Origin: Breoghania sp. L-A4
Lineage (GTDB): Bacteria; Pseudomonadota; Alphaproteobacteria; Rhizobiales; Stappiaceae
Assembly (NCBI RefSeq): GCF_003432385.1
Contig: NZ_CP031841.1
Span: forward strand, 2,705,579-2,769,578
Reading direction: 5' to 3'
DNA length: 64,000 nucleotides
The notes under the pieces are model-generated. The model had not been told where the DNA came from. It did no database searches and saw nothing but the letters and a program-made list of their open reading frames with translations. The stretch's first letter is position 1; every line of letters starts with the position of its first letter. Below, piece by piece: positions 1,914-28,998 of this stretch. The position numbers and the translations under genes were made by a program.

Positions 1914-3398
1914 ATGAACACGAGCGCACCGAAAATCGTGCCGGCGACACCGGCAACCCGCATGGCGCCGCACAACGCGGAAGCCGAACGACAGCTGCTG
2001 GGCGCGATTCTCGTCAACAACGAGACCTATTACCGGGTTTCGGACTTCCTCGACCCCGAGCACTTCCTGCTGCCGCCGCACCAGGAAATCTATGAGATGG
2101 TCGGCAAGCTGGTGCGCGCCGGCAAGATCGCCTCCCCGATCACCTTGAAGACGTTTTTCGGCTCGGACGCGAAGATCGCGGACCTCTCCGCCACCCAATA
2201 CCTGCTGCGGCTCGCCGCCGACGCCACCGCCGTGATCAACGTCGAGGACTACGGCCGTACGATCTATGATCTGGCCGTCCGCCGGAACCTGATCCGCATC
2301 GGTGAGGACATGGTCAACATCGCGTTCGACGCGCCGATCGACATGCCGCCGAGCGCCCAGATCGATGACGCGGAACGCCGCCTGTTCGCGCTGGCGGAAA
2401 CCGGCAGTGCCAGCGCCGGCTTCACGACGTTCGGTGATGCGCTCGCTGCGACCATCGACATGGCTGCCGCCGCCTACCAGCGCGAGGGCCATCTGTCGGG
2501 TCTGTCGAGCGGCCTGCGTGGCGTCGACACGCAGATGGGCGGCTTGCAGCATTCCGATCTGATCGTGCTCGCCGGGCGCCCCGCCATGGGCAAGACATCG
2601 CTGGCCACCAACATCGCCTACAATGTGGCGTCCGCCTACCGCGCCGAGGAACAGCCGGACGGCTCGATGAAAACGGTCGATGGAGGCATCGTCGGGTTCT
2701 TCTCGCTCGAAATGTCGGCCGAACAGCTCGCCACCCGTATCATTTCCGAGCAGACCGAAATCTCGTCGAGCAAGATCCGTCGCGGCGACATCTCCGACGC
2801 GGATTTCGAGAAACTCGTCGCCGCCTCCCAGCACATGCAGACCGTGCCGCTCTACGTCGATCAGACCGGCGGCATCTCGATCGCCAACCTGGTTTCGCGC
2901 GCCCGGCGGCTCAAGCGCCAACGCGGCCTCGACCTGCTGATCGTCGACTATATCCAGCTCCTGTCAGGGTCCGGCAACAGCAACTCCAACCGTGTGCAGG
3001 AGATCACGGAAATCACCACCGGGCTCAAGGCGCTGGCCAAGGAGCTTAATGTCCCGATCATCGCCCTCTCCCAGCTCTCCCGTCAGGTCGAGAGCCGCGA
3101 CGACAAGCGCCCGCAGCTCTCCGACTTGCGTGAATCGGGCTCCATCGAGCAGGACGCCGACGTGGTGATGTTCGTGTTCCGGGAGGAATACTATCTGTCC
3201 AAGACCGAGCCGCGCGAAGGCACCGACGAGTATTTCGCCTGGCAGGCGGACATGGAGCGGCTGCGCGGCCGCGCCGAGCTGATCGTCGCCAAGCAACGGC
3301 ACGGCCCGACCGGCACCATTGACCTGCTGTTCCAGGGCGAGTTCACGCGCTTCTCCGACCTCGCAGAGGACGACCATTTGCCCGAGCGCATGGAATAG
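1914..3398 (+). CDS. dnaB: Replicative DNA helicase DnaB
   Basis: The hexameric fork helicase, 494 residues. The N-terminal primase-interaction domain starts at about residue 15 with HNAEAERQLLGAIL; the RecA-like domain has Walker A GRPAMGKTS near residue 220, FSLEMSAEQLATR near 262 and Walker B LLIVDYIQLL near 340. I chose ATG 1914, which has GGGGA seven bases upstream; an in-frame ATG at 1842 would add 24 residues not typical of the family. The alanine racemase gene follows after two bases, so the two are probably cotranscribed. Confidence 0.96.
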   Translation: MNTSAPKIVPATPATRMAPHNAEAERQLLGAILVNNETYYRVSDFLDPEHFLLPPHQEIYEMVGKLVRAGKIASPITLKTFFGSDAKIADLSATQYLLRLAADATAVINVEDYGRTIYDLAVRRNLIRIGEDMVNIAFDAPIDMPPSAQIDDAERRLFALAETGSASAGFTTFGDALAATIDMAAAAYQREGHLSGLSSGLRGVDTQMGGLQHSDLIVLAGRPAMGKTSLATNIAYNVASAYRAEEQPDGSMKTVDGGIVGFFSLEMSAEQLATRIISEQTEISSSKIRRGDISDADFEKLVAASQHMQTVPLYVDQTGGISIANLVSRARRLKRQRGLDLLIVDYIQLLSGSGNSNSNRVQEITEITTGLKALAKELNVPIIALSQLSRQVESRDDKRPQLSDLRESGSIEQDADVVMFVFREEYYLSKTEPREGTDEYFAWQADMERLRGRAELIVAKQRHGPTGTIDLLFQGEFTRFSDLAEDDHLPERME

Positions 3399-6911: not shown

Positions 6912-8420
6912 ATGAGCGGCCAGCCTCCCCTTTCCGCTTCGCCCGCCAGTCATGCCGGTGCGAACGACGGCACGTTTTTCAATCTCGAAGATGACCGCCT
7001 GCATGAAGAATGCGGCGTCTTCGGCATTCTCGGCCACGACGATGCGGCGGCCCTGACGGCGCTTGGGCTGCATGCGCTTCAGCATCGCGGACAGGAAGCG
7101 GCCGGCATCGTCACGCATGACGACGAACAGTTCCGCGCCGAGCGCCACCTGGGTTTGGTCGGCGACCACTTCTCCTCCGCCGACACCATCGCCCAGCTCA
7201 GCGGTCCCAACGCCGTCGGCCACGTGCGCTATTCAACGTCGGGCGAAACCATTCTGCGCAATGTGCAGCCGCTGTTCGCCGAGCTGGAAGGCGGCGGCAT
7301 CGCCATCTGCCACAACGGCCACTTCACCAACGCGATGACGCTGCGTCGCCAGCTCATCAAGGACGGCGCGATCTGCCAGTCGACATCCGACAGCGAGGTC
7401 GTGCTGCAGCTTCTCGCCCGCAGCCGTCAGCCCAAGATCGTCGACCGTTTCATCGAGGCGATCAGCCAGATGGAAGGCGCCTATTCGCTGGTGGCGCTGA
7501 CCCGCAAGAAGCTGATCGGCGCACGCGATCCCTTCGGCATCCGGCCGCTGGTGCTGGGCGACTTCAACGGCGCGCCCATTCTGGCGTCAGAGACCTGCGC
7601 GCTCGACATCATCGGTGCCAAGTTCATCCGCGAAGTGGAGAACGGCGAGGTGATCGTCTGCACCCCGGGCGGCATCGAGTCCTATTTCCCGTTCGGCAAG
7701 CGCCCGGCGCGCCCGGACATCTTCGAGTACATCTACTTCTCCAGGCCCGATTCCGTGCTTGGCGGGCACAGCGTCTACGACGTGCGCAAGCGGTTTGGCC
7801 GCCAATTAGCGCTGGAAGCCCCCGTCGAAGCCGACGTGATCGTGCCGGTTCCCGATTCCGGTGTGCCCGCGGCGCTCGGTTACTCCCAGGAATCGGGTAT
7901 TCCGTTCGAGCTTGGCATTATCCGCAATCACTATGTCGGACGCACGTTCATCCAGCCGACCCAGGCAATCCGCACGCTCGGCGTCAAGCTGAAGCATTCG
8001 GCCAATCGCAGCCAGATCGAAGGCAAGCGCGTGGTGCTGATCGACGACAGCCTGGTGCGCGGCACCACCTCGGTGAAGATCGTGCAGATGATCCGCGACG
8101 CCGGCGCCGCGGAGGTCCACTTCCGTCTCTCGAGCCCGCCGATCCGCTTCTCCGACTACTACGGCATCGACACGCCGGTGCGCGAGAAGCTGCTGGCCGC
8201 GAAATACAATCTCGAGGAAATGCGCTCTTATATCGGCGCCGACACGCTGGCGTTCCTGACTGTTGATGGCGTGTACCGCGCCATGGGTCACGACGGCCGC
8301 AACGACGCGCAGCCCCAGTATACGGATCACTGCTTCACCGGCGATTATCCCACGCCGCTGACCGATCTTGAGGGCGAGGACGAGGTGCGCAGCCAGCCGC
8401 GCCTGGTCGAGGTGCGCTGA
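6912..8420 (+). CDS. purF: Amidophosphoribosyltransferase
   Basis: The first committed enzyme of purine synthesis: PRPP plus glutamine to 5-phosphoribosylamine. A short leader precedes the N-terminal nucleophile cysteine (ECGVFGI, Cys34), so the leader must be cleaved. The class II glutaminase domain has HALQHRGQEAAGI and GHVRYSTSG; the phosphoribosyltransferase domain has the PRPP loop VVLIDDSLVRGTTS near residue 374. It has 502 residues, normal for the family. ATG 6912 follows AGGAAGCC. The TGA stop overlaps the ATG of the next gene (TGATG), indicating coupling. Confidence 0.96.
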   Translation: MSGQPPLSASPASHAGANDGTFFNLEDDRLHEECGVFGILGHDDAAALTALGLHALQHRGQEAAGIVTHDDEQFRAERHLGLVGDHFSSADTIAQLSGPNAVGHVRYSTSGETILRNVQPLFAELEGGGIAICHNGHFTNAMTLRRQLIKDGAICQSTSDSEVVLQLLARSRQPKIVDRFIEAISQMEGAYSLVALTRKKLIGARDPFGIRPLVLGDFNGAPILASETCALDIIGAKFIREVENGEVIVCTPGGIESYFPFGKRPARPDIFEYIYFSRPDSVLGGHSVYDVRKRFGRQLALEAPVEADVIVPVPDSGVPAALGYSQESGIPFELGIIRNHYVGRTFIQPTQAIRTLGVKLKHSANRSQIEGKRVVLIDDSLVRGTTSVKIVQMIRDAGAAEVHFRLSSPPIRFSDYYGIDTPVREKLLAAKYNLEEMRSYIGADTLAFLTVDGVYRAMGHDGRNDAQPQYTDHCFTGDYPTPLTDLEGEDEVRSQPRLVEVR

Positions 8421-9160
8421 TGGCGAACCGGTTTGAAGGACGCGTTGCGGTCGTCACCGGCGCATCGCGTGGTATCGGCTATCAGGTCGCCAAGGGGCTG
8501 GCGGCCGAAGGTGCGCATGTCGTGGCGATTGCGCGCACGGTCGGCGGGCTGGAGGATCTTGATGACGAGATCCAGGCGGCCGGCGGTTCGACCACCCTCG
8601 TCCCGCTCGATCTGACCGACATGGACGCGATCGACCGTCTGGGCGCCGCCATACACGAACGCTGGGGCAAGCTTGACGTGCTGATCGGCAACGCCGGCAT
8701 TCTGGGTGTGCTGTCACCGCTCGGCCACATCTCGATCAAGGATTGGGACAAGCTGATGGCGGTCAACGTGACCGCCAACTGGCGGCTGATCCGCTCGCTC
8801 GACCCGTTGCTGCGCACCTCCGACGCCGGACGCGCCGCCTTCCTGTCATCGGGCGCCGCGCACAAGTGCCGGCCGTTCTGGGGTGGGTATTCGGTCACCA
8901 AGGCCGCGCTGGAAGCGCTGGTGCGCACCTATGCGGCGGAGACCGCTTCCGGCACCGTGCGCGCCAATCTTGTCAATCCGGGGCCGATGCGCACCGCCAT
9001 GCGCGCCAAGGCGATGCCCGGAGAAGATCCGCAGAGCTTGCCGGAACCCGCCGAGCTCGTCGGTCCCCTGCTCGACCTCGTCGCTCCGGACTTCAATGAA
9101 ACCGGCAAACTCTATGATTTTCCGACAAGAACGCTGATCGAGTACACGTCGATGGTGTGA
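8420..9160 (+). CDS. SDR family NAD(P)-dependent oxidoreductase
   Basis: A classical short-chain dehydrogenase of 246 residues: TGASRGIG nucleotide-binding loop near residue 14, NAGILG, and a catalytic Ser...Tyr-Lys pair in LSSGAAH and GGYSVTKAAL. It overlaps purF by one base, an arrangement common in Hyphomicrobiales, but the substrate is unknown. It is closest in style to the YciK-like SDRs. The convergent terminator at 9188-9217 ends the unit. Confidence 0.88.
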   Translation: MANRFEGRVAVVTGASRGIGYQVAKGLAAEGAHVVAIARTVGGLEDLDDEIQAAGGSTTLVPLDLTDMDAIDRLGAAIHERWGKLDVLIGNAGILGVLSPLGHISIKDWDKLMAVNVTANWRLIRSLDPLLRTSDAGRAAFLSSGAAHKCRPFWGGYSVTKAALEALVRTYAAETASGTVRANLVNPGPMRTAMRAKAMPGEDPQSLPEPAELVGPLLDLVAPDFNETGKLYDFPTRTLIEYTSMV

Positions 9161-21072: not shown

Positions 21073-22602
21073 CTATTCGGTTTGCACCGGAATGCTGACC
21101 GAAATCGTCGGCTTGCCCATCATCTTGACCGGAAAGCGCGACCCGACAAACGATGTGTCGACCGGTTCAACCTCCACCTGCAGTTTTCCGCCGGCGATTT
21201 CGCTCAACGGCAGGTCGAAGTCGAAGTGCGCCATCGCATTCTTGACGCAATTTTCGCACTTTTCCGGCTCATCCGGCTGGAACATGAAGCGCGTGGCGAT
21301 CGGCTTGCCGTCCTTCAACAGATGAACCTTGAAGCTGCCCGGGATCTTCAACCGGTTGATGCCGCTGGCCGTCACCATGGCGCGTTGCGGATTAATCGAC
21401 ACGCTGCGCTCCAGCGGCACCGATTGCGCCGTCTTCGCGGCCAGGGCGATAAGAGGCTGTTTGGTGGCCGGCGGGGCATAATCGACGTCCAGCGACTTCA
21501 CCGAGTCGATGACTTTGATGGAACTGAGCGCGACGGGCAGGCTTGTGAACGGTTCCAGCGCCTGCAGCGGCGGGACGGTGAAGATCTGATAGCTCGCCAG
21601 GTCCGTCTGCTTGTCGATGGTCGAGAGCAACCCGTTCAGCTCGGTGGCGCCAACCTTCTTCTGCCATTCCCACCACAGCCGGTCCCAGTTCGAATGAAAG
21701 AACCAGAAAACGGGATCGAAGGCTGCGACCGACTGGTTGGCCATCGTCGGCCCGATAGCACCATGTCCGCCGTCGTGCGCCGCGATGATCGTGTTGTAGG
21801 GCGCTCCGGACCAGTAGCCGTGGAAGTCTTCCCAGTCGGTCTTTGTCAGCGCCCGCTCCAGATCGGCGGTCACGTTGTACGTCAACAGGTTGCTCTTGAT
21901 GTCGGGATAGCTGAACCTGGTTGTCTTGTAACCCTTGCTGAAGCCGCCACCGATGTCGGCGGGCAGCGTGTAGCTGTCGAAGGGCGCCTTCTTGAGAAAG
22001 TCCGGAAACGGCGTCGTGATGTCCCAGTATGGAAGCGTCACATCCTCGCATCCGGGGACCGAGCGCAGCGCGTTCTCGAAATTGAACATGTAGGCCCGGT
22101 GCCAGGGATTGTAGCCGGGCACATGATGCTGGCAGTAAAGCGGCGCGGGAAGCCAGTGGTAGCCGGCCTGCATGAAATAGCAGTTGGGATCCGTGAGATC
22201 CTTGTCCTTCGCGAGAATTCCCTCGAACGCCGTCTTGACCAGTTTCAGCTCCGCGTCGCTCAGTGAATTGAGATCCTTCCTGACGCGCCCTGCGCCGCTC
22301 GTCCCGGCCGGGGCCGCCAGTGTGGCTGTTTCCCCGTCCGGTGCGGCTTTCCCCTTCGGATAACCGTCGGTCATCCAGTTGAGAAACGTCTGGACCATGT
22401 CCGCCGTCCAGGGGTCCCCCGGCGGCATGGTCTTGGCGGCCACCTGGCCGTAGATGGTGCCTGCGGACGCCCGCACCTGCTCGTAGCTTGTCAGGTCGAG
22501 CCCCTGCGTCTGCATGTGGGCGATGTCCGTATCGGTGAACATCAGCCGGATGGTGTCGTACCAGGTCGGGTGTGCAACGGGATAATTTGGCGATTGGGGC
22601 AC
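21073..22602 (-). CDS. Tyrosinase / polyphenol oxidase family type-3 copper protein
   Basis: A 509-residue enzyme with a binuclear copper centre, expected to oxidise phenols to quinones. CuA ligands: YHW (His149), QHH (His159/160) and NPWHRAYMF (His168). CuB ligands: AHDGGH (His276, His280) and FWFFHSNWDRLWWEW (His303). Residues 10-110 form an N-terminal segment (PTWYDTIRLMFT...MPPGDPW) whose family I cannot name. Residues 400-509 form a beta-rich C-terminal domain (SFKVHLLKDG, AHFDFDLP, MGKPTISVSIPV) of the kind that caps the active site in polyphenol oxidases. No signal peptide. Start is GTG 22602 with GGAG eight bases upstream. The next gene upstream resembles its C-terminal domain. Confidence 0.9.
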   Translation of the reverse strand: MPQSPNYPVAHPTWYDTIRLMFTDTDIAHMQTQGLDLTSYEQVRASAGTIYGQVAAKTMPPGDPWTADMVQTFLNWMTDGYPKGKAAPDGETATLAAPAGTSGAGRVRKDLNSLSDAELKLVKTAFEGILAKDKDLTDPNCYFMQAGYHWLPAPLYCQHHVPGYNPWHRAYMFNFENALRSVPGCEDVTLPYWDITTPFPDFLKKAPFDSYTLPADIGGGFSKGYKTTRFSYPDIKSNLLTYNVTADLERALTKTDWEDFHGYWSGAPYNTIIAAHDGGHGAIGPTMANQSVAAFDPVFWFFHSNWDRLWWEWQKKVGATELNGLLSTIDKQTDLASYQIFTVPPLQALEPFTSLPVALSSIKVIDSVKSLDVDYAPPATKQPLIALAAKTAQSVPLERSVSINPQRAMVTASGINRLKIPGSFKVHLLKDGKPIATRFMFQPDEPEKCENCVKNAMAHFDFDLPLSEIAGGKLQVEVEPVDTSFVGSRFPVKMMGKPTISVSIPVQTE

Positions 22603-22622
22603 TAAAATCTCCTGTCAAAAAA

Positions 22623-23003
22623 TTACACCGGGTGCAGCATGAGGCAGACACTCAGCGTTGGATTTCCCATCCGATCGGGATCGACGGCCTTGCGAGACCC
22701 GTCCGCGTCGAGCGCTTCAATGTCGACGCTGAGTGTGCCGCCAGACACGACGTCGATGGGCAAGATAAAATCGAAATGAGCGGCCTGACTTGGTCCGCCG
22801 AGCCCGCCGGCATCCGCCCCGTCGGAGGGCTGGAAGAAAAAACGCGATGCAATCCGCTGGCCGTTCATCAGAAGATGGACCGAGAACGATCCGCCGATGG
22901 CCGCGCTGTCCAGCCCGTCAATCGCAACATTCACATCGCGGGCCTGGACCGCAACGCCTTGGGAAATGGCAACAGACTTGCGAGGCTTCCGCGCACGTTC
23001 CAT
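22623..23003 (-). CDS. Stand-alone homologue of the tyrosinase C-terminal domain
   Basis: A 126-residue protein that matches the last 100 residues of the neighbouring tyrosinase position by position: SF.VHLL..G..IA.RF.FQP, AHFDF.LP, GG.L.V..E..D and MG.PTLSV. It lies 20 bases upstream in the same direction, so the two are probably one operon. The tyrosinase keeps its own copy, so this is an extra domain in trans. By analogy with caddie proteins and shielding domains of other tyrosinases it might help copper loading or block the active site, but that is inference. ATG 23003 is preferred; GTG 23006 is also possible. Confidence 0.8.
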   Translation of the reverse strand: MERARKPRKSVAISQGVAVQARDVNVAIDGLDSAAIGGSFSVHLLMNGQRIASRFFFQPSDGADAGGLGGPSQAAHFDFILPIDVVSGGTLSVDIEALDADGSRKAVDPDRMGNPTLSVCLMLHPV

Positions 23004-23188
23004 CACCGCCGGCCCACGCGTTCAAATCACGAAATGCATTTCTCGAACAAAATCAATTATTCAGACACAAAACCTTGAACCCCTCCGGGCTCAATATACT
23101 TGATCGTACATCTTGCGCCCACGGGAGCGCAATGCCGCCACGGAAATTTGAAGCGCGGGACAGACGCACCCGCCGCCGGAAATGAAAA

Positions 23189-23208
23189 GGCCGGTCCATG
23201 GACCGGCC
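23189..23208 (-). terminator. Perfect palindrome followed by T4 on the minus strand
   Basis: A 20-base perfect palindrome centred on CCATGG. On the minus strand it is followed by TTTTCATTT, so it can end transcripts coming from the IS fragments to the right before they reach the tyrosinase operon. Confidence 0.6.
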
Positions 23209-23237
23209 CCACACGGTTGTGCTACTCCCGCTCATTA

Positions 23238-23547
23238 CTAACGTATCCACGTAACCTTCTTGGCTTACGAATGACATGACGGCTTCGATGGGTCCGCGGC
23301 CCATGTTGCGGTAACCTAGATGTGGGCATTCGGTGTTGTAATGGATGAGCCAGGCGTCGAGATCGGTCTGCAGGGCTTCGACGCTCGGACAGAATGTCTC
23401 GCGCATCTTCACGCGGAAGAACGCGTCGAGGACGGCGCCGTTGAACCGCTCGACGAAACCGTTCGTCTTTGGCGTCCTGACTTTGGTTCGGCGATGCTCG
23501 ATGCCGTTGAGCTCGAGATAGAGCTTGACGTTGCCCCACGGACCTAA
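23238..23547 (-). pseudogene. IS481-type transposase, C-terminal remnant
   Basis: The minus strand reads LYLELNGIEHRRTKVRTPKT, NGFVERFNGAVLDAFFRVK and HYNTECPHLGYRNMGRGPIE, the C-terminal third of an IS481-type integrase-fold transposase (last catalytic Glu region and HYN motif). The N-terminal part is lost: the sequence is cut at its 5' side by the end of another IS at 23526-23578. The open frame runs on past the usual end to 23053, so the terminus is also altered. Not functional. Confidence 0.8.
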
Positions 23548-23596: not shown

Positions 23597-24471
23597 CTAG
23601 ACGCCCTCGGCTCTCATTTTCCGCTGCCGTTCGAAATCGACGGGTGACAGTATCCCGTTCCTCACATGCTTGCGCTTCGGGTTGTAGAACATCTCGATGT
23701 AGTCGAACACATCCTGCCGGGCTTCAACGCGGGTCTTGTAGGTCCGGCGCCGTGTCCGTTCCCGCTTGAGCAGATTGAAGAAGCTCTCCGCAACAGCGTT
23801 GTCGTGGCCGTTCCCGCGACGGCTCATGGAGTGTTCCAGGTTATGAGCCCTGAGGAATGATGCCCAGTCCATGCTGGTGAATTGGGTGCCTTGGTCTGAG
23901 TGGATCAGCACCTTGTGCTTTGGCTTCCGTCTCCACACCGCCATCAGCAATGCCTGCAGGACCACGTCATCGTCTGACGGCTCTACATCAACCAGCCGAC
24001 GACGCGGCGGGAGTAGAGATCGATCACGACGGCCAGATAGGCGAAGCCCTCCAGCGTCCTGATATAGGTAATGTCGGTGACCCAGATCCGGTCTGGCGCG
24101 CCCACATCGAACTGCCGGTCCATGCGTTGTCGACGACCAATGACGGCTTGCCGCCATGGCTGCTCGGTCGGCGCTTGTAGCCGATCTGTGCCTTGATGCC
24201 CGCCAGCTTGGCCAGTCGAGCAACGCGGTTCGGACAGCACGTCTCGCCCTGATCCAGCAGATCGTCGTGCAGCTTGCGATAGCCATACACCTTGCCGCTT
24301 TCCTTCCAAACCTTGCTGATGAGTTCGGTCTGGCGAGCGTCTTCCTTCGCCCGCTTGCTCAGCGGGTTCTTCAGCCAGGCGTAGAAGCCGCTCGGATGGG
24401 GTGCGCAGGCACCGGCACATCGCCCGCACCGAGAACAGCGGGCGATGCTCGGCGACGAACGCGTATCTCAC
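23597..24471 (-). pseudogene. IS3-family transposase OrfB, broken
   Basis: Pieces of the rve catalytic domain are spread over frames: [71 protein letters not shown] and MSRRGNGHDNAVAESFFNLL. The DDE residues themselves are kept. One frame change lies at the run 24398-24401, another near 24120, a third near 23965. There is also a CAG-to-TAG stop in the GW.MQSRQ segment near 23988, which a sequencing indel would not explain. Transposition from this copy in cis is not expected. Confidence 0.85.
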
Positions 24472-24749
24472 TTTGCATCCCTGGCGAAATACGCGTTCGA
24501 CTGCGTCTCACCTATTTTTAGGATGTCGCGCTCCTCGGTGACCCTCGCCAGCTCGCCCTTCAGGCGCCTGATCTCGGCGTCCCTGTCATCGCCGCCGGGC
24601 GGCAGCGAGAACTTCCTCTTCCAGGCGTAGAGCGAGTGCGGACTGACGCCCAGCCGCTTCGAAACCTCCGCGACCGGATAGCCCCGCTCGGTGATCTGCG
24701 CCACCGCGTCCCGTTTGAAATCGTCGCTGAAATTGCCTTTGACCATCAT
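24468..24749 (-). CDS. IS3-family transposase OrfA
   Basis: A 93-residue helix-turn-helix protein ([40 protein letters not shown]) followed by a leucine-zipper-like stretch ([18 protein letters not shown]). It binds the element ends. ATG 24749 or the next Met. The end ([18 protein letters not shown]) differs from the usual ILKKATAYFA, near the normal OrfA-OrfB frameshift site. Confidence 0.85.
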
Positions 24750-24841
24750 GGCCTCCTTGCCTCAAAATTAGGGAAGAAGGCGTCTACGAAGCTTGGGGCT
24801 ATTCAGAGTCCTGAACTGCGACGAAAACTAATTTTTACCAG

Positions 24842-25971
24842 CTATTCGTTCAACTCCTGCATTAACCTACCTGCCAAATCACTGGCTACCCAAATCGAAT
24901 GATCAATTTTCCCTGAAAACACAGTATAAAAGGGATGTTTTGTCTCCAATTTCTCGATGAGCGACGGTCGCCTATCAGTACTATCAACGCCCGCAAGAAC
25001 CACACGAACTGTTGCCAAAAAGTCTATGTACTCTGCGCTGGAAATATCTGGAAGCCAATGCGATGACGAACGAACCATTTGCTCATATGCATCCCTGGCA
25101 GCGTCATCCCCTATGGCCTCTCTTGGGGACTTCCATTTCTTTGGATAATTCCTACCAATAAATGTGTCTCGTACCGTGTGATCAACATGATAAAGAAGAT
25201 ATTGTCCTGATTTACCAAACGGGAGAATTGTAAAAAACCGTCCATCCATAACGGTGATGCCGACTGGCGGCTTCTCACTTCTCCACTTAACAATGGGAAC
25301 AACTGTAAGCTCGTATTGCAGGTCTGTTAAAGAAACACCTAAAGATTCATTGAATGAGTTGAAACTTGAATATGTACAATTTACAATTGACCTCGCATTT
25401 ATGGTAACATTATCGGCCTTTAAAACAAAGCCATCTATAGACTCTTCGACAGAACTCACGTTGCTGTCAAAGAGGACGGCTACATTATTCCTATCAAGAT
25501 CTGAGCTTACTAAATATTTAAGAATGCGCGAATCGTAAACAACCTCATCGGTATATATCCCACCAGAGACATTTCTTAATGAAGGTTTGAAATCATCAAG
25601 ATCGATTTCATCTGTTTTCAAATTCGCCTTACGACAGAAATCCAGATACTCGGCGAAGTTAACATTGCTGCCTTCACTGCTAACAAAATACGCGTTTGGA
25701 AATCCGCGCAAGATGCTTTCATTGAACCTCTTTTGGAATGCATGAAAGCCTCTCTGACAGTGCACTGCCGTTTCTATATCTCGGGGTAATGATAACCAAG
25801 GTGAAGTCTGTTTTGGTTATTTAGGGTGGCACCCTGCATCAACGACGATTCTCGCTCCAGTAACTTCACGCTTAACCCTAATTTTGACAGCTCAATTGCC
25901 GACAAGCAGCCAAATATACCTCCTCCTATTACTACCGCGTCAACTTTGGACACTTCACTCGCCTTTGACAT
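24842..25971 (-). CDS. FAD-dependent oxidoreductase (DAO type), frame broken once, AT-rich
   Basis: A Rossmann FAD motif at the N-terminus (VDAVVIGGGIFGCLSAIELS, then LLERESSLMQGAT) starts a flavoprotein of the amine/amino-acid oxidase fold. The first part stops after LGYHYP; adding one base to the G4 run at 25783-25786 (plus strand) gives LGYHYPRDIETAVHCQRGFH and a single product of 376 residues ending near SDLAGRLMQELNE. Base composition is far more AT-rich than the neighbours and codon use differs, so it was acquired. Similar genes occur in surface-polysaccharide clusters; the substrate is unknown. IS elements flank both sides. Confidence 0.77.
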
Positions 25972-25999
25972 CGATGAACTTTCCACCTAATGATCTCGA

Positions 26000-26297
26000 A
26001 CTCGGATGGTCAACCTCAAAACAAAATTCAGCTAGATCTTTCTTAAGACTAGTTCCTCTACAGGAGTTTCACCTAGATGATTCTAAATTTTTTCCAAAGG
26101 ATAACATCTGCATCATTTGCGAACCTTCGAATATTCCGGGAGATGCGCAGCTATGACGAATACCACGTTTTCCTTTCCGAGTGATTTGCTCAAACCAAAT
26201 CGAGCCGATTTTGAGGATGCATAAACCCCTCTAAACTTCCAGAAGAAGTTGGGATTGAATTAGGTCACATACTCATAAAACGGGATTCCCTTTGCGC
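26000..26297 (-). pseudogene. Degenerate AT-rich coding remnant upstream of the FAD oxidoreductase
   Basis: The minus strand reads SSKSARFGLSKSLGKENVVF and VIAAHLPEYSKVRK before a stop near 26116; GETPVEELVLRK follows in another frame near 26040. The first stretch resembles the YxxxK region of an SDR or epimerase, but I cannot assign a family. Composition matches the FAD oxidoreductase gene, so both probably arrived together. Stops in all frames make it non-coding now. Confidence 0.4.
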
Positions 26298-27110
26298 GAG
26301 GGTTCTGATTCACTGACCACCATCAATGGAGGTCAGGATGGCTCGCTTCGATCTGACGGATTTCGAGTGGTCTGTGATACAGCCGCTTCTGCCGACAAAG
26401 GTGCGTGGGGTCCCGCGCGCCGATGACCGCAAGGTGCTGAACGGCATCTTCTGGCGGCTGCGCACGGGAGCGCCTTGGGCCGACATTCCGGCGCGCTATG
26501 GCCCGTACACGACCTGCGTCAACCGCTTCAACCGCTGGCGCAAGGCCGGGCATTGGGCCCGTATTCTTGAAGCGGTATCAGATGCTTACGACGGTGACGT
26601 GCAGATGATCGACTCGTCATCGATCCGCGTTCACCAGCATGCCGCCAACGGCCAAAAAAAGACCAGCGATCCCGTTGCATGGGTCGCTCGCGCGGCGGCC
26701 TGACCACCAAGATCCATGCGCTCGTCGACGCCGAGGGCCGGCCGATCCGCCTCAAGCTGACCGAGGGCCAGGCCCACGACGGACGCTCGGCCGCCGACAT
26801 GTTCGAAACGCTCAAGGCCGGTCACATCCTGCTCGCCGACCGCGCCTATGACAGCGATGCCTTGCGCGCCGAAATGGCCGCGCGGGGCGCATGGGCCAAC
26901 ATCCGCGCCATGCCGAACCGCGTCAAAACCTTCCCCCTTCAGCGCCTGGGTTTATCGACAACGCAACGCCGTCGAGCGTTTCTTTAGCAAACTCAAACAC
27001 TTCAGGGCCATTGCCACACGATACGACAAGCGCGACGCCAATTTTCTCGCCTCAGTCCAACTCGCTTCAATCCGCATATGGCTGCGAACTTATGAGTCGG
27101 TCACCTAGAG
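26298..27110 (+). mobile_element. IS5-family (IS427-like) element, right end missing
   Basis: Starts with GAGGGTTCTGATTCA, the usual IS427-group end, at 26298. The transposase starts at ATG 26338 (GGAGGTCAGG upstream): MARFDLTDFEWSVIQPLLP, then IDSSSIRVHQHAANG, a slippery A7 run at 26655-26661 where the group normally shifts frame, MGRSRGGLTTKIHALVDA and LADRAYDSD. A further frame change at the C5 run 26933-26937 separates the end (AWVYRQRNAVERFFSKLK, IWLRTYESVT). No matching inverted end is found on the right; an IS630 remnant begins there. Confidence 0.82.
26338..27108 (+). pseudogene. IS5-family transposase, in three frames
   Basis: The DDE residues are visible: Asp in MIDSSS, Asp in LADRAYD and Glu in NAVERFFSKLK. 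The first frame change, at A7, may be the programmed one. The second, at C5 26933-26937, looks like one extra base and may be decay or a sequencing error. Reading across both gives a product of about 256 residues, normal for the group. Confidence 0.75.
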
Positions 27111-27120
27111 CATTTACCGA

Positions 27121-27458
27121 TCAATCGCGATCATATCCGGCTGCCGCGAAATAGTTCTGGCATTCGGTCGGTGTGAAGGTGTCGATACCCTGGGAGATCG
27201 CGTCCCAGAGATCGTCTTTTGTGCGCGCGGCGGTTTTCTTGAGGAAGGCCTTGAGTTTGGAATAGGCCATCTCGATGGGATTGAAATCGGGCTGTAAGGC
27301 GGCAGGAAGCGCAGGGTCGCGCCGGCGGTCTCGATGGCATGGCGCACTTCAATCGGCTTGTGCGCCGGCAGATTGTCCATCACTACGATGTCACCGGCTT
27401 TATGCATCGGAACGAGAACCTGCTCCATATAGGCGAGAAAGGCCGCGCCCCACATGCG
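27121..27458 (-). pseudogene. IS630-family transposase, C-terminal remnant
   Basis: The minus strand reads [13 protein letters not shown] (second catalytic Asp), [13 protein letters not shown], then, after adding one base at 27288-27291, [20 protein letters not shown] (catalytic Glu) and [20 protein letters not shown], ending at TGA 27121. The N-terminal two thirds are gone. Its first codons are fused in frame to the end of an acetyltransferase gene. Confidence 0.85.
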
Positions 27459-27745
27459 CTTCCCGAACCGGAACATGCCATCGTCGCCGGGCAGATCTGG
27501 CTCATTCAGACGGCGCGGATCCGGGTGGCCGGCATGGTGGTACTCGACGATGTGGAAGCCGCAGACGTTGACGTAAAAATGAATGTTTCGCTTCTCGAAA
27601 TACGGCGTGTGCGTTGTCCAGACCTGCGTGTCCGGATACGTAGCCTCAATGGCACGCCAGGCGTTGCGGCCAATGCCGCGGCCCAGTTGATCAGAGCGCA
27701 CGTAGAAAAAGTCGAGTGAGTTGTGCTGCGTTTCGGTATTGATCG
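27459..27745 (-). pseudogene. GNAT acetyltransferase, C-terminal half (split gene)
   Basis: This half reads [20 protein letters not shown], then [19 protein letters not shown] (acetyl-CoA loop) and [16 protein letters not shown]...GFHIVEY, a GNAT fold. Its N-terminal half lies at 29017-29258, on the other side of an IS407-type element. The two halves join in frame once the IS and one ATCG copy are removed. At its end it runs in frame into an IS630 transposase remnant near 27458, so the natural C-terminus may be altered too. Confidence 0.85.
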
Positions 27746-27809
27746 TGACGTTGCCCCACGGACCTAATCCAGTTTGAAATAGACTCTGGCCCATCGAAAA
27801 GGACCAGAG

Positions 27810-28088
27810 ATGAAGCGCACCAAGTTTAGCGAAGAACAGATTATCGGCATTCTCAAAGAGCATGAGGCGGGCGTTCCGATCGCCGATTTGTGCCGCAAGC
27901 ACGGCGTGAGCAACGCCAGCATCTACAAATGAAAAGCCAAGTATGGCGGCATGGATGTGAGCGAGGCCAAGCTGCTTAAATCGCTCGAGGACGAGAACGC
28001 CAAGCTCAAAAAGCTCTTGGCCGATACCATGCTCGACAACTCCGCACTCAAGGATCTTCTCGAAAAAAATGGTAGCGCCCGCCACTAG
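27810..28088 (+). pseudogene. IS407-type OrfA with an internal stop
   Basis: [20 protein letters not shown], then [19 protein letters not shown] is the helix-turn-helix of the family. At 27930-27932 TGA replaces the TGG tryptophan of IYKWKAKYGG. The rest ([20 protein letters not shown]) is intact. The usual end LLEKKW is out of frame because the A run before ATGG has seven A (eight expected). Confidence 0.85.
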
Positions 28089-28998
28089 GCGAAAGGCTGT
28101 CGCTTATCTCAGGAAGACCTTTGAGATGAGCGAGCGGAGGGCGTGCACAGTGCTAGGCTGTTGTCGCATGACCATGCGGTATCAGGGCAGCCGCGTGGAT
28201 GATGTCGATCTGCGGGATCGGATGAAGGCGATTGCCCATGAACGTCGGCGCTTTGGATATCGGCGCCTGCATGTATTGCTGCGCCGGGAAGGCTATGTGG
28301 TCAACCACAAGCGCCTGTTCCGGATGTATCGGGAGGAGAATCTCTCGGTGCGGCGCAGGGGGTGCCGGAAACGTGCCTTGGGAACTCGGGCGCCGATGGT
28401 CATCCCCATAGCACCCAACGACCGCTGGTCGCTGGACTTTGTCTCCGATCAGCTCACCTATGGTCGCCGGTTCAGGGTTCTGACGGTCGTGGACGATTGC
28501 ACCCGGGAGTGCTTGGCACTCGTCGCCGACACATCCCTCTCGGGTCTACGGGTTGCTCGAGAGCTAGAGACGCTCATGGCGACACGGGGCAAGCCAAAGA
28601 TGGTGGTCAGCGACAACGGCACCGAGTTCACCTCCAATGTCATTCTCAGCTTTGCCGATCAGCACAAGATTGACTGGCATTACATCGCACCGGGAAAGCT
28701 GATGCAGAACGCGTTCATTGAATCGTTCAATGGCAGGCTCAGGGACGAGATGCTCAACGAGACCCTGTTCCCGAGCCGATCCTATGCCCGTATCGCCCTG
28801 AGAGAATGGCGGGCTGATTACAACGCCAACCGCCCACACTCGCGGCTGGGCTGGCTCACCCCAACCGAATACGCCACCACCTTCACCCAACGACGGGACC
28901 TGCCGCTGCGCTCAATGGCCAACTCCGCGCCAGCCCCCGTCTTCCACCCGGCTCAGCACGGCCAAAACAACCCCCGGAGTCTACATCACATTGGATAA
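28069..28998 (+). CDS. IS407-type transposase OrfB
   Basis: A 309-residue integrase-fold transposase, full length. It has the HTH_21 segment [13 protein letters not shown], then the rve domain with all three catalytic acids: [10 protein letters not shown] (Asp), VVSDNGTEF (Asp) and [14 protein letters not shown] (Glu), and the closing [17 protein letters not shown]. The protein is normally made as an OrfAB fusion by frameshifting; the OrfA stop codon should limit this. Confidence 0.92.

Follow-up and report, generated by a model that had tools for sequence, protein, structure and literature searches.

In a 64,000-nucleotide stretch of DNA from Breoghania sp. L-A4 (contig NZ_CP031841.1, positions 2,705,579 to 2,769,578 of the forward strand; the whole stretch is referred to here as the window), a tyrosinase that bears a C-terminal lid domain is encoded next to a small protein that is a free-standing paralogue of that lid. 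On the minus strand the small gene comes first, followed by 20 nucleotides and then the tyrosinase gene. The features of the pair are as follows:

22623..23003, minus strand: gene for the free-standing lid paralogue, 126 amino acids from an ATG (an alternative GTG start at 23006 gives 127 amino acids)
22833..22835, minus strand: Phe codon of the free lid (F58 in the 127-residue numbering) within IASRFFFQ, aligned with the proposed plug Phe of the enzyme
22603..22622, minus strand: intergenic gap of 20 nucleotides, holding an AGGAG ribosome-binding site for the tyrosinase start
21073..22602, minus strand: tyrosinase, 509 amino acids, GTG start
22351..22569, minus strand: MPPG segment at the tyrosinase N-terminus, residues about 12-84, related to the C-terminus of AsqI
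21655..22182, minus strand: type-3 copper catalytic domain (PF00264), residues 141-316
Candidate copper ligands, assigned by eye: H149, H159/H160, H168, H276, H280 and H303 of the tyrosinase
21076..21453, minus strand: enzyme-borne C-terminal lid, residues 384-509
21280..21282, minus strand: F441, the proposed active-site plug residue of the enzyme lid
21247..21258, minus strand: CENC motif (C449, C452) of the enzyme lid, not present in the free lid

The catalytic domain of the tyrosinase matches PF00264 with 117 bits against a curated cut-off of 22.6, covering profile positions 3-214 of 214, and the His pattern of the copper-binding regions was recognized by eye. The nearest PDB relatives of this central domain are mollusc hemocyanin units, and a structure model of the full-length enzyme, built from a three-row alignment, has a predicted local distance difference test (pLDDT) score of 34. 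Because inspection by eye reveals no evident signal peptide in the tyrosinase or the free lid, both are probably cytoplasmic. A promoter scan found no site immediately upstream of the small gene.

The original prediction, made from the letters of the window alone, was right in stating, with correct coordinates, that the 126-residue gene resembles the C-terminus of the adjoining 509-residue tyrosinase, and that the tyrosinase retains its own C-terminal domain, such that a lid in cis and a paralogue in trans are both encoded. In a single pairwise BLASTP comparison, the free lid aligned with tyrosinase residues 384-504 with 46 of 124 positions identical (37%) and 69 of 124 positive, scoring 76.6 bits at an expectation value (E) of 9e-22, which rules out chance similarity. 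When the free lid was searched against the whole 5.03 Mb genome at E <= 10, the only hits besides its own gene were the tyrosinase lid (E 1.2e-18) and a match at E 0.47. At the same threshold, Pfam gives no match for the small protein or for the enzyme's lid region, and NCBIfam gives none for the small protein; PDB searches returned a single unrelated chain with the small protein (E 0.045) and a single unrelated enzyme with a lid profile (E 0.068). A structure model predicts a beta-sandwich for the free lid, with a strand ending at residue 57, directly before F58. In the structural alignment, mollusc hemocyanins occupy five of the first seven rows among the matches listed; solved chains of the caddie, the separate partner protein of Streptomyces tyrosinases, are not among the 50 structural matches listed, which excludes no shared fold.

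The pair also occurs outside the window. A single scan of genome contigs, relying on exact peptide patterns, returned two loci, both in Bradyrhizobium metagenome-assembled genomes, with an enzyme 71% identical to that of the window. In both, the frame directly upstream of the enzyme encodes a small protein 56% identical to the window's, whereas the window free lid and the enzyme lids are 37-39% identical. A lid profile (A1) built from three free and four enzyme lids detected a lid in three of 265 Bradyrhizobium genomes (the two metagenome-assembled genomes and G710), and all three carry both copies side by side, so that the search for the pair in other genomes, suggested at the outset, was successful, though at one shared locus. 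The small gene lies directly upstream of the tyrosinase in all four pairs. Many neighbouring frames are common to the three Bradyrhizobium loci; in this conserved neighbourhood (L020, L021 and L022) an aldo-keto-reductase-like frame was noted by eye. Comparison of these loci with the 64-kb window at E <= 1e-8 yields the pair, frames overlapping it and a single unrelated 27% match to a distant frame (8372-9160), and nothing else; the two genes have therefore remained neighbours in two dissimilar contexts.

Broader searches, whose family, order and class genome sets overlap, detected a lid in one of 87 genomes of the window's family (small-protein query; the window genome itself), in one of 347 genomes of the order and one of 296 genomes of the family of the Bradyrhizobium genome G484 (in each case the window genome or G484 itself), and in two of 385 genomes of the class, one being the window genome or G484 and the other G110. 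No further pair was detected in the order, the class or the two families, although misses are possible in that the profile searches scored part of the first-look candidates in most genomes. The G110 lid is weakly similar (E 1.1e-4) and lies within a 533-residue tyrosinase frame with no free copy in the flanks. A phylum search with the whole enzyme (E <= 1e-20) matched two of 398 genomes: that of the window, and G388, where the tyrosinase has a different kind of C-terminus and there is no clear free copy. On a Rhizobium leguminosarum plasmid, where only the plasmid was searched, an enzyme 41% identical to that of the window has its lid in cis only; about 5 kb from it, the same plasmid carries a short tyrosinase frame with a DUF7868 end beside a PpoB2 copper chaperone (L009, 12039-13356). 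Among 72,556 plasmid records, none matches the small protein at E <= 0.01; this search is blind to distant copies, because it missed the lid of the R. leguminosarum plasmid that the enzyme query found. A phage module was considered and rejected, as the tyrosinase has no match in 50,697 phage records and two viral-contig scans returned no relative.

A tree of nine lids places the four free ones in a single group, separate from the enzyme lids (support 99/100); its other inner branches are weak, and a long branch of 1.5 changes per column leads to the free lids. A single origin of the free lid, older than the split between the window and Bradyrhizobium copies, is therefore most likely, and since then the lid and enzyme genes have most likely stayed or travelled together. 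For five of the six pairs of free lids, the ratio of nonsynonymous (dN) to synonymous (dS) substitution rates lies between 0.153 and 0.283; the closest pair, with a dS of only 0.075, gives 0.588. For the enzyme the ratio is 0.159-0.212. Given these ratios in five of the six pairs, the small gene is maintained under purifying selection. Between the window and L011, dN amounts to 0.322 for the free lid, 0.213 for the enzyme lid and 0.202 for the whole enzyme.

The main mechanistic clue comes from the comparison of the two kinds of lid. In the mushroom tyrosinase abPPO4, according to excerpts of PMC4157443, F454, on the loop right after a strand, is a substrate placeholder in the copper pocket, and the CxxC motif (two Cys residues separated by two others) at C462-C465, 8 residues further on, is a proposed copper-loading motif. 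In the window enzyme, where the C-terminal domain is present and F441 was placed by its spacing to the CxxC, the distance from F441 to C449 is likewise 8, as it is in the R. leguminosarum and G110 lids. A CxxC lid of the abPPO4 type, with the motif 8 residues after the plug Phe, was found in all five enzyme lids of the clade; the CxxC itself is also present in G110 and in none of the four free lids. The last Phe of the strand IA(S/T)RFxFQ (F441 in the enzyme, F58 in the free lid) is identical in all nine lids of the clade, four free and five enzyme-borne, and the weaker G110 lid has Leu at this position. When four free lids were compared with four enzyme lids, the mean column identity was 37%, and the best nine-column segments were IxGSFxVHL (0.81, together with overlapping segments) and the strand IA(S/T)RFxFQ (0.78); since shuffled columns reach the maximum score in 4.8% of trials, this clustering is only borderline. 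The four free lids have no conserved Cys, and their conserved His and Met residues beyond the start are H43, M112 and M122 (ATG numbering). Because the plug Phe is kept and the CxxC is missing, the free lid is most likely a plug-competent, caddie-like helper without the copper motif, derived from the enzyme's own lid. Among the three roles initially proposed for the small protein, that of an inhibitor or plug thus fits best, as the Phe is kept, and Cys-based copper loading fits worst, as the CxxC is found in none of the four free lids.

The reading placed first, at somewhat less than an even chance, is that the two genes form a co-translated maturation unit in which the free lid binds the enzyme in trans and silences or holds it. 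Such a unit would serve a probably cytoplasmic type-3 copper enzyme, in which F441 of the enzyme's lid would sit in the substrate pocket and the CxxC loop of the same lid would help to bring in copper. Under the division of labour proposed here, the small protein would be a duplicated lid with the plug kept and the copper motif missing, and would most likely attach in trans to the catalytic core, using the same groove, at times when the enzyme's lid is unseated, that is, during folding, during copper loading, or after this lid opens or is cut. It might thereby keep the apo or unguarded enzyme folded and silent, like the Streptomyces caddie. This reading is based on the paralogy, the conserved pairing, the purifying selection, the gene order, the beta-sandwich prediction, the retained Phe and the missing CxxC; the conserved pairing in particular suggests that the spare lid helps to make or silence the enzyme. 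Weighing against it, the four pairs represent only two genomic contexts, because the three Bradyrhizobium loci share their neighbours and the window alone differs. The single shared setting of these three loci lowers confidence in the maturation unit and raises it for a new role of the free lid (see below).

A more elaborate possibility, unlikely but deserving some weight, is that the two lids are interchangeable, with the lid in cis loading copper through its CxxC and the lid in trans only plugging, such that the enzyme alternates between loading-competent and silent states. If this were true, lids in cis, in trans and in cis plus trans would represent stages of one evolutionary series, and caddie-like proteins would arise repeatedly by duplication or separation of a lid. 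It is also unlikely that the acidic free lid is a subunit, packing on the neutral-to-basic lid of its own or another enzyme in a hetero-oligomer without entering the copper site. Such packing would agree with the net charges of free and enzyme lids, which are opposite in three of the four pairs (the enzyme lid of the fourth is neutral), and with the closeness of the enzyme core to mollusc hemocyanin in the PDB, since mollusc hemocyanin units assemble. However, the strand IA(S/T)RFxFQ is among the best-kept segments between the lids, and a purely structural partner would not need it.

The remaining alternatives are less probable. That the free lid is a copper carrier delivering copper to the enzyme in the manner of MelC1 is quite unlikely: its gene lies upstream of the enzyme gene like melC1, Streptomyces and Marinomonas tyrosinases are described in literature excerpts as requiring copper helpers, and no PpoB2 match at E <= 0.001 is found in the three Bradyrhizobium genomes with the pair, but the four free lids conserve no Cys, the small protein lacks a Pfam match and hence any to the MelC1 family, and PpoB2 genes are present elsewhere in the window genome. 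Equally doubtful is a new role, in which the free lid would have turned to a different target or would bind a quinone or phenol product, its link to the enzyme being shared expression only. Although the long branch between free and enzyme lids and the faster rate of the free lid relative to both the enzyme lid and the whole enzyme point in this direction, the genes are adjacent in both of the dissimilar contexts, and the free lid retains the plug strand. Finally, it is very improbable that the small gene is a leftover, a decaying duplicate of the lid: the window copy does lie about 50 nucleotides from a frame at 23053-23412 that resembles a transposase remnant by eye (no Pfam match at E <= 0.001), and clear transposase frames lie farther out, but the gene is open and full length in all four genomes, and a decaying fragment is contradicted by the selection test and by the single old clade.

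The occurrence of lids in cis and in trans was also surveyed at 22 tyrosinase loci, comprising 19 of the 23 rows of a class search over 195 genomes (the window genome contributes three of these, and the other four rows were omitted as second pieces of frames that had already been included) together with L008, L009 and L012. Two of these loci have no frame with the copper-B pattern and three have a C-terminal extension shorter than 60 residues; at the other 17, the enzyme's own extension was compared with other frames at the locus, with flanks of 0-1.5 kb for most. A clear free relative of the extension was found at one of the 17 loci, the window itself (E 6.4e-22), and five others gave 4.7-7.3 bits (E 0.01-0.08), which is noise level. 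At one of these five, in G1448 (L043), a secreted-looking small protein (2416-3006) is encoded directly upstream of a lidded tyrosinase (844-2340). It has no match at E <= 1 with a lid profile built without L043; with the L043 lid included, it scores 6.8 bits against at most 1.7 in 40 shuffles, and a profile alignment gives E 2e-4 and a probability of 45%, with ten shuffles at E >= 0.14. A second, independent case of cis plus trans in G1448 is thus possible, but unproven. In G1411 (L037), the tyrosinase lacks a C-terminal extension and the lid is a separate downstream gene (about 2150-2632; E 1.6e-21 to a lid profile), with a GGAGG ahead of its ATG and an overlap with the enzyme gene's end; judging from this arrangement the lid is in trans only, the alternative being an assembly frameshift. 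The 133-residue gene directly upstream of the Mesorhizobium AR10 tyrosinase (L012, 4488-4889) was rejected as a parallel, since it matches neither lids nor Pfam. At L031 (G1311), a 238-residue frame with a KEYPKPG-like repeat at its N-terminus and several Cys residues lies 94 nucleotides upstream of a tyrosinase.

At the other end of the window enzyme, the N-terminal MPPG segment had been called unassigned. It is in fact related to residues 660-747 of AsqI (PDB 5yy2; E 3e-6), a fungal protein in which the related stretch forms the C-terminal 90 residues, whereas in the window enzyme it is N-terminal. The R. leguminosarum homologue likewise begins with this segment (46% over 90 residues), and a free-standing 182-residue protein encoded beside the tyrosinase of Mesorhizobium sp. 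AR10 contains it as well (L012, 6322-6870; 33% over 73 residues, E 7e-8); in L046 (G1412), a free gene downstream of a tyrosinase matches it weakly. Because the domain is free-standing beside tyrosinases, clearly in L012 and weakly in L046, a switch between cis and trans may be open to accessory domains at either end of the enzyme.

Just upstream of the pair, the window contains a run of transposase frames at 23597-28998 (rve, HTH_Tnp_1, DUF4096 and DDE_3), within which the guanine plus cytosine (G+C) content is lower (50% at 24001-26000), and the small protein has no match in the 86 other members of the window's family. Taken together, these features suggest that the pair was gained horizontally. 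Between the insertion sequences, a 307-residue frame (24842-25765) with no Pfam match and a third-codon-position G+C fraction (GC3) of 0.40 is apparently foreign. The window genome contains three tyrosinases (frames of 325, 701 and 513 amino acids) and two PpoB2 matches over the cut-off, at least about 200 kb from the pair.

Several known systems combine a tyrosinase with an accessory domain or protein, and caddies, lids and PpoB2 are covered in excerpts of PMC4157443, PMC10526336, PMC6312201, PMC2855505 and PMC11609597. The closest in gene order are MelC1-MelC2 and ORF378-TyrC of Streptomyces, in which, as in the window, the gene of the small protein lies directly upstream of the tyrosinase gene (for melC1-melC2, see the review PMC9454253, in part). 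The Streptomyces caddie is described as a C-terminal domain expressed separately, its MelC1 family being PF06236 (PMC11608171, in excerpt), and in such excerpts it plugs the active site with Tyr98 and aids copper loading. By contrast, the window's small protein has no match to this or any other Pfam family; a lid of the Streptomyces tyrosinase's own is not described in the text available, whereas the window enzyme has one and the free protein is its paralogue. A C-terminal lid with a plugging residue, as in the window enzyme, is reported in literature excerpts for abPPO4, Aspergillus oryzae, Burkholderia thailandensis, Verrucomicrobium spinosum and Hahella HcTyr1, and abPPO4 further shares the spacing of its CxxC loop (PMC4157443, in part); these lids are described there in cis only, and the excerpts do not mention a free second lid. 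In Marinomonas, PpoB1-PpoB2 is an operon of a tyrosinase and a copper helper, the latter likened in the accessible text to putative transmembrane metal-binding proteins. The PpoB2 family (PF09948) is not represented in the window pair: the small protein does not match it, and its genes in the window genome lie elsewhere. Mollusc hemocyanins, which carry oxygen, consist of repeated units and have the lid in cis.

A lid in cis plus a paralogue in trans is not mentioned in the open-access texts on tyrosinase lids and caddies cited here, in the portions available, and the earlier description of the two-part system as undescribed stands within that literature. The review mentioned above, in the part consulted, sorts bacterial tyrosinases into those with a separate caddie, with a fused C-terminal extension or with neither (PMC9454253), and the unit in the window has both. 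Because its free part is visibly a copy of its fused part, it offers a concrete route along which trans caddies might evolve. Moreover, as the lids differ in the CxxC while sharing the proposed plug, they may allow copper loading and active-site plugging to be told apart, which is difficult within one domain.
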